Shown here piece by piece: positions 41,085 to 42,859 of a DNA stretch of 64,000 nt; position 1 is the first letter of the stretch, and every line of letters starts with the position of its first letter. The translations under genes were made by a program, and so were the position numbers. This DNA is from an uncultured archaeon (GTDB lineage Archaea; Halobacteriota; Methanosarcinia; Methanosarcinales; Methanoperedenaceae): NCBI GenBank assembly GCA_902386135.1, contig CABMIB010000101.1, positions 62,001 to 126,000 on the forward strand. Reading direction: 5' to 3'. The notes under the pieces were generated by a model. It did no database searches. It saw only the letters and a list, made by a program, of their open reading frames with translations, and was not told where the DNA came from.

Positions 41085-41097
41085 ACAGTGTCTTATT

Positions 41098-41206
41098 GCG
41101 TTACGGGAATATTTAAATATTGCGTTACGGAAAATAATTTTTGTAAGCGCAGATGAACGCAGATATATTGCCGTAACGGGATTTGCCCAGAAAGATACCG
41201 TAACGG
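41098..41206. repeat. CCGTWACGG site array, cluster 1
   Basis: Near-palindromic 9-mers lie at 41098-41106 and 41122-41130 (GCGTTACGG) and at 41171-41179 and 41198-41206 (CCGTAACGG). The last pair is exactly 27 bp apart, centre to centre. A short CGCAGATGAACGCAGAT repeat interrupts the middle. The first two sites flank the TATA-like ATTTAAATA before the 83-residue gene. Confidence 0.7.
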
Positions 41207-41330
41207 AATTTAGCGAGATAACCCACAGCAACTTTAGATGCATCAGTCGGTTTTATGGACTATAATATAAACGACCCGTCATTTACTAAATCCATAAGCA
41301 GGCATTGGAACCGCTTGGATATACACCAGG

Positions 41331-41427
41331 CGTAAACTTTAAATACTTTCGTTAGTATTTATACGAACCATAGTGGGCAGAAGAACACTTTTTTTCATAC
41401 CACCACCATAATCCACCTCTGCCCACT
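41331..41427 (+). ncRNA. Candidate small RNA gene, copy 1
   Basis: A TATA box (TTTAAATA, 41338-41345) and an imperfect palindrome (TTAGTATTTATACGAA) precede a hairpin whose outer arms AGTGGGCAGA (41372-41381) and TCTGCCCACT (41418-41427) are perfectly complementary. The 36-nt loop holds TTTTTTTCATACCACCACCAT and ends in a pyrimidine run, CCACC. The spacing from the TATA box to the stem suits archaeal initiation. The same layout recurs at 41551 and 41875. Confidence 0.6.
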
Positions 41428-41550
41428 AAAATCTTATCCTGGGCCTACAATACCTCCTGCTGATATCTCATCTGCATACTGGAAAACAGCCCCATGCTTG
41501 CACTTACCAGAAGGATACACAAGCGCTTGGTTCGATTGGTTTTACACACA

Positions 41551-41649
41551 GCGTAAACTTTAAATACCTTTGTTAGTATCTATACGAACTATAGTGGGCA
41601 GAAAAAACAACTTTTTTCATTTCCACCATACTCCCCTCCTCTGCCCACT
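41551..41649 (+). ncRNA. Candidate small RNA gene, copy 2
   Basis: GCGTAAACTTTAAATAC and TTAGTATCTATACGAA match copy 1. The hairpin arms AGTGGGCAGA (41593-41602) and TCTGCCCACT (41640-41649) enclose a loop with CTTTTTTCATTTCCACCAT and CTCCCCTCC. The loop pyrimidines resemble the anti-Shine-Dalgarno end of 16S rRNA. The RNA would be about 57 nt. Confidence 0.6.
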
Positions 41650-41702
41650 ACCTCCTTACTATTGAAACTAGAAGAACCAACGGATCTCAGGTAAGCTATA
41701 TT

Positions 41703-41765
41703 CCGTTACGGTATTATAGTTGAATTATTCCGTTACGGAAAGTTCATTATCAAATACCGTAACGG
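41703..41765. repeat. CCGTWACGG site array, cluster 2
   Basis: Three 9-mers at 41703-41711 (CCGTTACGG), 41730-41738 (CCGTTACGG) and 41757-41765 (CCGTAACGG) have centres exactly 27 bp apart. The DNA between them is A/T-rich and not repeated. Confidence 0.85.
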
Positions 41766-41874
41766 AATATAGCTTAATCAATCTGAACGGACGAAGATAT
41801 TTTCTTTCTAACAAAACCGCATTGTAGTTCATCGGATGATCCAGAGGTACCAATACCTCTTGACTTTACATCAG

Positions 41875-41972
41875 GCGTAAACTATAAATAGTTTAGTTCG
41901 TATATATACGAACTAAGTGGGCAAGAAAAAAATTACTTTTTTCATACCACCATACCCACCATCTTGCCCACT
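41875..41972 (+). ncRNA. Candidate small RNA gene, copy 3
   Basis: GCGTAAACTATAAATA precedes a perfect 20-bp palindrome at 41895-41914 (AGTTCGTATA/TATACGAACT). The hairpin arms are AGTGGGCAAGA (41916-41926) and TCTTGCCCACT (41962-41972). Compared with copies 1 and 2, one extra base is present in each arm, so pairing is kept. The loop again has CTTTTTTCATACCACCAT. Confidence 0.65.
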
Positions 41973-42013
41973 GCCTCCTATTTTATGACCACTACTTAAT
42001 GCAATGTAAAAGC

Positions 42014-42859
42014 TCACAGCAGATCCAGCGGACTCTTTATCTTCTTAATCTCCTCGCTCGAAACCTGCGTATATATCTGTGTCGTCTGCAAGTTCGCATG
42101 CCCCAGAAGAGTCTGAATTTTCCTGATATCCACGCCGTCTTCAAGCAGGTGCGTGGCGAACGAATGGCGCAGCGTGTGCACATGCACATCTTTCTCTATG
42201 CCTGCGCGCTTCGCCGCTTTCTTGATCGCATGCTGGATTCCGCGCGGCGACATTTTTTTGCCGTTTGTCAAGAATATGTATCCTTTCCCGTCGGAGCCGC
42301 TTTTTTCCTTATATTCCAGCAGGTCTCTCTTGAACATGCCGGAGATTATGAAAATCCTGTCCTTCGCGCCTTTCCCCATACGCACCCAGCCTATGCCATC
42401 GTTTAAATCGAGGTCTGAGTATTTCAGGTTGACGCATTCGGAAAGCCGCAAGCCTGTGGAGTAAAGCAGCTCGATCAAAAGCCTGTGCTTTGAGTTCTCC
42501 GTATTATCAAGCAGATCTCTTATTTCCTGCCGTGTCAGTACGATGGGTAACTTTTTCGAGGCTTTCGGAGTTTTAATAAGCTCCAGGTTTTTACCAAGCA
42601 TTTCGGTGTAGAAGAATTTTAGCGAGGCTTTGATCAGAGCGATAGAGGCATTTGATAAAGAATGGTCTGACATCTTATGCGCCAGGTACTCCTTTATATC
42701 ATCATCATCAACACCCTCCGGAGACTTTTTAATGTACTCAAGGAATTTAGTATTATAGAAAAGGTACATTTTGGAGGTCTGTTTTGAGAATCCCCTCAGT
42801 TTCATTTCGGTCTCAAACTTTTTTAATGCCAGCGGCACATCGTTTTGCATAATAGTCAT
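42014..42859 (-). CDS. xerA: Tyrosine recombinase XerA
   Basis: The 281-residue protein has an N-terminal SAM-like core-binding domain (KKFETEMKLRGFSKQTSKMY) and a catalytic domain with Arg in TGLRLSE, HTLRHSFATHLL, LLGHANLQTTQIY with the Tyr nucleophile. The ending KSPLDLL is typical of archaeal XerA. It resolves chromosome dimers at dif. AAAGGAC lies 5 nt before the ATG. The CCGTWACGG arrays lie on both sides of the gene, and the three hairpin RNA units lie downstream. Confidence 0.92.
   Translation of the reverse strand: MTIMQNDVPLALKKFETEMKLRGFSKQTSKMYLFYNTKFLEYIKKSPEGVDDDDIKEYLAHKMSDHSLSNASIALIKASLKFFYTEMLGKNLELIKTPKASKKLPIVLTRQEIRDLLDNTENSKHRLLIELLYSTGLRLSECVNLKYSDLDLNDGIGWVRMGKGAKDRIFIISGMFKRDLLEYKEKSGSDGKGYIFLTNGKKMSPRGIQHAIKKAAKRAGIEKDVHVHTLRHSFATHLLEDGVDIRKIQTLLGHANLQTTQIYTQVSSEEIKKIKSPLDLL

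Follow-up and report, generated by a model that had tools for sequence, protein, structure and literature searches.

The window analyzed here, a 64,000-nucleotide stretch (C101:62001-126000) of the 3.24-Mb genome of an archaeon, Ca. Methanoperedens (ANME-2d), contains three tandem units at 41330-41440, 41551-41662, and 41875-41985. In each unit an archaeal BRE/TATA promoter is followed by a palindrome that overlies the predicted start site, and by a stem of 9-11 bp that closes a pyrimidine loop of ~35 nt. The arrangement described in the original prediction, GCGTAAACT-TATA, palindrome, and hairpin, does recur, at 41330, 41551, and 41875. The units form a direct-repeat family (D1; 3 copies, 106 nt) with 64-75% identity to the reference copy.

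Promoters and hairpins are all on the plus strand. The copy 1 promoter (41330-41345) consists of the BRE-like GCGTAAACT and the TATA box TTTAAATA (41338-41345). Its operator TTAGTATTTATACGAA (41352-41367) is a degenerate MsvR box (motif per PMC3729527), and the sRNA hairpin (41372-41427) has a 9-11-bp stem, AGUGGGCAGA/UCUGCCCACU, and a loop with U7 and CAUACCACCACCAUAAUCC. Copy 2 has the promoter sequences GCGTAAACT and TTTAAATA (41551-41566, TATA box at 41559-41566), the operator TTAGTATCTATACGAA (41573-41588), and a hairpin (41593-41649) with U6 and CAUUUCCACCAUACUCCCC in the loop and then a pyrimidine tail, UACCUCCUUA. The copy 3 promoter (41875-41890) combines GCGTAAACT with the TATA box TATAAATA (41883-41890), and the loop of its hairpin (41916-41972) contains U6 and CAUACCACCAUACCCACC, with the tail GCCUCCUAUUUU. 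The palindrome of copy 3, TTAGTTCGTATATATACGAACTAA, is perfect, as had been claimed, but it is 24 bp long (41893-41916) and not 20 bp; it includes a consensus MsvR box, TTCGTATATATACGAA (41897-41912). The double insertion reported for the arms of copy 3 (CAAGA/TCTTG versus CAGA/TCTG) is real and yields an extra compensating pair, CAAGA/UCUUG.

With a covariance model whose training set includes them, the hairpins of copies 1, 2, and 3 score 57.1, 57.8, and 60.7 bits (E about 1e-12), the model hits lying at 41373-41426, 41594-41648, and 41917-41971. Their fold z-scores are -5.95, -5.91, and -5.23, and none of 200 shuffles was equally good. The stem pattern RTGGGCARN{20,50}YTGCCCAY has 15 matches in the genome versus 0 for the reversed control. 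A protein frame was considered and rejected, in agreement with the earlier view of the units: among 94 relatives every one of the three phases is affected by length differences, and a sense-strand ATG occurs in only 4%.

Every copy is preceded by a promoter of its own, and the nearest downstream ORF, as naively called, is on the other strand for 65 of 84 sRNA copies, so that independent transcripts are likely and the units can be regarded, as first proposed, as putative separate small-RNA genes. Cis-acting elements, that is, 5' leaders or terminators of neighbor genes, might account for the 11 of 84 copies that have a same-strand ORF starting <100 nt downstream. However, the 65 opposite-strand ORFs, the fixed spacing of each hairpin from its own TATA box, and the convergent gene that follows the window trio make such a role very improbable. 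That gene, xerA (42014-42859, minus strand), encodes an archaeal XerA-family tyrosine recombinase; it and the sRNA trio look unrelated because the sRNA is mostly found elsewhere without xerA. We conclude with high confidence that the trio are genes for non-coding RNAs of ~60-75 nt that belong to an sRNA family.

A perfect 24-bp inverted repeat with units CCGTTACGG/CCGTAACGG, 37 nt apart, is present between copies 2 and 3 (41692-41776) and also at 41088-41214. A 9-mer of it is seen again beside the sRNA copies L358, L370, and L425, and the repeat may be a small element or the site of some factor.

A hairpin family in the class Methanosarcinia

The covariance search that had been suggested for further copies revealed a family far wider than the three units. 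A first model (R1), built from 16 hairpins of the window's genome, detected about 25 copies in that genome at E<=0.01, 3-18 per Ca. Methanoperedens genome, 4-6 in those other Methanoperedenaceae that were sampled, and 1-5 in nearly all of the order; the family was present in 58 of 60 relatives. With a second model (R2), built from 109 matches, it was found in 186 of 192 Methanosarcinia genomes, sister order included (Methanosarcina, Methanolobus, Methanothrix, and ANME-2/3). Two of the R2-matched genomes we take to be those of Methanothrix thermoacetophila PT and M. acetivorans C2A. Across a phylum sample, R2 matched 105 of 107 members of the class and none of ~285 genomes outside it. Scanning named records with a 23-base core pattern gave at least 117 stretches; the 80 matches listed all come from Methanosarcinales or "uncultured archaeon" bins, and include Methanosarcina, Methanolobus, Methanococcoides, Methanohalophilus, Methanomethylovorans, ANME-2, ANME-3, and Methanoperedens.

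The family is thus nearly universal among the sampled members of this class of methane-producing and methane-oxidizing archaea, yet it is absent from Rfam: at the gathering cut-off, no Rfam 15 family matched either the window or the sRNA in eight named relatives, and matches at E<1 were weak chance ones. The family, its class-wide reach, and its coupling to MsvR were not found in Rfam or the searched literature, and members may already have been recorded, without a name, among the transcripts of M. mazei or Methanolobus. Function is known for few archaeal sRNAs, and the examples in the searched literature are confined to narrow groups. The hosts of this family include the genetically tractable Methanosarcina acetivorans.

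Most family hairpins are 44-73 nt long with a single 9-11-bp stem. In an alignment of 104 distinct sequences fitted to the model, 98.4% of cells pair, compensated changes occur at seven of the nine pairs, and the covariation score is not reached in any of 500 shuffles. Alignments made with MAFFT only, which are not structure-fitted, recover the identical helix, with compensation at 3 and 7 pairs. Both arms vary in step, as in GUGGGCAGG/CCUGCCCAC, GUGAGCGGG/CCCGCUCAC, AUGGGCAGG/CCUGCCCAU, and GCGAGCAGG/CCUGCUCGC. Selection on stem pairing, proposed from copy 3, is thereby borne out by seven of nine stem pairs.

These data also bear on whether the units are copies of a mobile, MITE-like repeat with no RNA function, or the ends of an inserted element. 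Many copies per genome, their tandem clusters, and the perfect 24-bp inverted repeat between copies 2 and 3 would be expected of such a repeat. Against it are the compensatory stem changes, class-wide retention at 1-4 copies in loci that are syntenic within families, the occurrence of the same hairpin under promoters that differ between subclasses, and the lack of family matches (0) in viral contigs, phage, and plasmid records. On the basis of covariation, synteny, and differing promoters we reject a mobile element, the probability of which we consider very low.

The window copies are a Methanoperedenaceae-specific subclass. A search for the half-box TACGAA, 3-6 nt, and AGTGGGCA located at least 98 places, distributed over 33 of the 34 Methanoperedenaceae genomes; no place was among the matches listed for the 26 other genomes of the order. 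Of 94 extracted subclass copies, 99% have a TATA box, the 8-mer of which starts 33-34 nt before the stem in most, 94% have a U5+ tract, and 84% have ACCACC. Their 3' tails tend to UAUCCUCCUAUU. The CCTCC-like ends noted initially hold up as a tendency only, with CCTCC <=15 nt past the stem in 46% of the 94 relatives.

Other copies (L008, L010, L011, L013, L028, and L029) have in common another promoter, about TTTGACAATCATAAG-TTTTTAAATA-TAACAAAATTGTT, which contains an inverted repeat of its own; through it a second regulator probably controls the same RNA scaffold. A G-rich/C-rich hairpin (e.g., GGGGAGAATCTATTTCTCCCC) is present just upstream of the sRNA at L007, L018, L023, L038, and L039, and nearby at L008 and L013.

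The palindrome and the redox regulator MsvR

According to the MsvR study (PMC3729527), MsvR is a V4R-domain repressor that acts when reduced and binds TTCGTAN4TACGAA. The published operator overlaps the promoter, msvR itself carries a box, and one known target is the F420H2 oxidase, which is a flavodiiron protein. The same study reports that at rpoK the box by itself is insufficient for MsvR binding, and that the mapped start of M. acetivorans msvR is about 27 nt from the TATA center (PMC3729527).

Copy 3 in the window has the exact TTCGTAN4TACGAA, and copies 1 and 2 have degenerate boxes, with TTAG replacing TTCG. Among the 94 relatives, TTCG-N8-CGAA is present in 98% and the complete TTCGTAN4TACGAA in 52%; the left half-box TTCG, found in 98% of the extracted copies, was not selected for by the search. 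The box is situated between TATA and stem and ends 4-5 nt ahead of AGTGGGC in 85 of 92 cases. Given the spacing of ~27 nt from the TATA center, the RNA is predicted to start a few nucleotides before the stem, with the box reaching to the start site. The genome has one clear msvR (L253:940-1698; 271 bits with NCBIfam NF053755, for which the cut-off is 220), with a TTCGTACAAAAACGAA box 33 nt upstream of its ATG. Because the palindrome matches the published box, and because the genome has an msvR with its own box, MsvR is very probably the factor for which the palindrome serves as operator, and the palindromic operator for a single factor that had been postulated thus has the sequence of an MsvR box. 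Control of the sRNA subclass by MsvR is likely, and the trio is consequently predicted to be oxidant-induced. The degenerate boxes of copies 1 and 2 and the rpoK result speak against such control.

As in the MsvR regulon of that study (PMC3729527), a TTCGTAN4TACGAA operator overlaps the promoter and msvR has its own box. The predicted targets in the sections on which we draw are structural genes, whereas sRNA genes would be new targets. An MsvR site on sRNA genes suggests an RNA-based stress response, and the link to MsvR is a candidate RNA arm of the oxygen response in strict anaerobes.

Elsewhere in the genome an MsvR box is found about 500 nt from an FprA-like flavodiiron protein gene beside rubredoxin genes. 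The boxes at L101, L103, L105, and L108 are near genes for nifB-like radical SAM/rubredoxin/FprA proteins, for a small protein of 111 aa that matches no family, and for a CGGC-domain protein, as well as near rpiA; they provide a first, predicted sketch of the Methanoperedens MsvR regulon. The protein encoded at L254:964-2139 combines a V4R domain with a region (DUF7125) resembling the KaiC ATPase. It is not an MsvR, and is possibly a second V4R sensor.

Possible modes of action of the RNA

The core-family loop consists of U5-7 and CUAACCCCCACUCCCC, and the (A)CUAACCCCCACUCCCCAA that follows U5-7 is conserved from Methanothrix to Methanoperedens. The C-rich box is doubled in Methanosarcina and in some Methanolobus copies. 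The window-type loop is CUUUUUU..AUACCACCAUAAUCCCC, where the C-rich box is changed to ACCACCAUAAUCCCC; it is further altered in L009/L010. The single-stranded, U-rich U5+ tract is present also in most of the wider family.

The original prediction had the loops pairing with ribosome sites. Target tests covered about 850 kb of the genome, with naive gene calling. Duplex energies of the loops against 664 gene starts were not above those of shuffled loops. For the window-type loop, 7-mers gave 39 versus 17 matches, a result reached by 1 of 300 shuffles; the excess consists mainly of k-mers spanning ATG, as the loop contains CAT, and a mild excess near -12 is general to C-rich sequence. Anti-Shine-Dalgarno targeting thus has no clear support in these tests.

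A long antisense target for the class-wide loop was rejected, since perfect complements are nearly confined to sRNA-type genes. All 11 occurrences of GGGGAGTGGGG in the window's genome are in sRNA-type hairpins, although the stem of one hairpin differs and folds only weakly, and in 14 other genomes most intergenic occurrences are in such hairpins, with several in coding sequence of the GC-rich G169. In M. acetivorans, the 11-mer complement of the class-wide loop is found only within the sRNA gene itself.

The best explanation, to which we assign a probability of about 60%, is an MsvR-controlled, Lsm-docked, mRNA-pairing sRNA trio. Each of the three tandem genes would be transcribed from its own TBP/TFB promoter, which reduced MsvR would block from an operator between TATA and RNA start, over the predicted start site. 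Oxidation would release MsvR and so turn on all copies together. In the RNA, the 5' stem would close a large single-stranded loop, the U5-7 tract of which is a probable Lsm-type docking site, and the C/A-rich seed AUACCACCAUAAUCCCC would pair around the Shine-Dalgarno sequence or start codon to repress translation of several mRNAs. Start-site pairing as the mode of action we put at somewhat below even odds.

The alternative is that the loop is a protein-binding site, with the U-tract and CCCCCACUCCCC (or a variant) titrating or steering an RNA-binding protein, and MsvR setting the dose of the subclass. We did not find CCCCCACUCCCC in an archaeal context in the searched literature. This alternative, which we regard as somewhat less likely than not, would explain why conservation of the class-wide loop motif goes far beyond what mixed mRNA pairing needs, why the box can be doubled, and why perfect complements are almost absent from mRNAs; high copy number fits titration. 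The box is also unpaired in the loops of seven further hairpins with unrelated stems, of which six fold at z about -2 or better and the one from the window's own genome at -1.2. However, a strict protein site would forbid the change to ACCACCAUAAUCCCC in the window subclass and the further alteration in L009/L010, and we know of no partner protein for the U-tract/C-rich loop, which also counts against it.

The constant U-tract and the seed that changes between subclasses argue for an Lsm-type pairing RNA, and the conserved, sometimes doubled C-rich box for a protein site. We consider the two about equal for the family, with pairing slightly ahead for the window subclass because its seed varies. 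It is conceivable, but unlikely, that a class-specific archaeal RNA-binding protein recognizes the U-tract/C-rich loop and is titrated by the multicopy sRNA, the genes for which would have multiplied in Methanoperedens, with subclasses under different sensors, including MsvR, so that redox state would determine how much of a global post-transcriptional regulator is free. The conserved loop is a defined bait for the partner of an archaeal sRNA.

CsrB/RsmY RNAs titrate CsrA through repeated GGA motifs in loops. The present family resembles them in displaying a short repeated motif in loops and in having redundant copies, but differs in having C-rich boxes where those have the GGA motif and CsrA. 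Multicopy stress sRNAs are a known kind, for example LhrC of Listeria, which has CU-rich loops and for which Shine-Dalgarno pairing is established (PMC4132741). Several near-identical copies, one stress regulator (predicted here), and C/U-rich single-stranded loops are common to both. However, LhrC is bacterial, there is no sequence relation, and Shine-Dalgarno pairing is established for LhrC alone.

Within archaea, the M. mazei sRNA162, sRNA154, and sRNA41 are intergenic sRNAs of the same order as those described here, and are reported to mask ribosome-binding sites via single-stranded loops or linkers (PMC3510493; PMC5867862). sRNA162 is 191 nt long, with three stem-loops and a 39-nt single-stranded linker, and its BLAST homologs are only in two close Methanosarcina species (PMC3510493). 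By that description it is set apart from the present family, which has a single stem, a large loop, a length of ~60-75 nt, class-wide distribution, and multiple copies. Nine conserved cold-induced sRNAs are reported in a further study (PMC5378194).

Hairpins with unrelated stems and an unpaired CCCCACTCCCC box in the loop were seen at L337, L338, L339, L341, L333, and L128. They are possibly a second family with the same partner.
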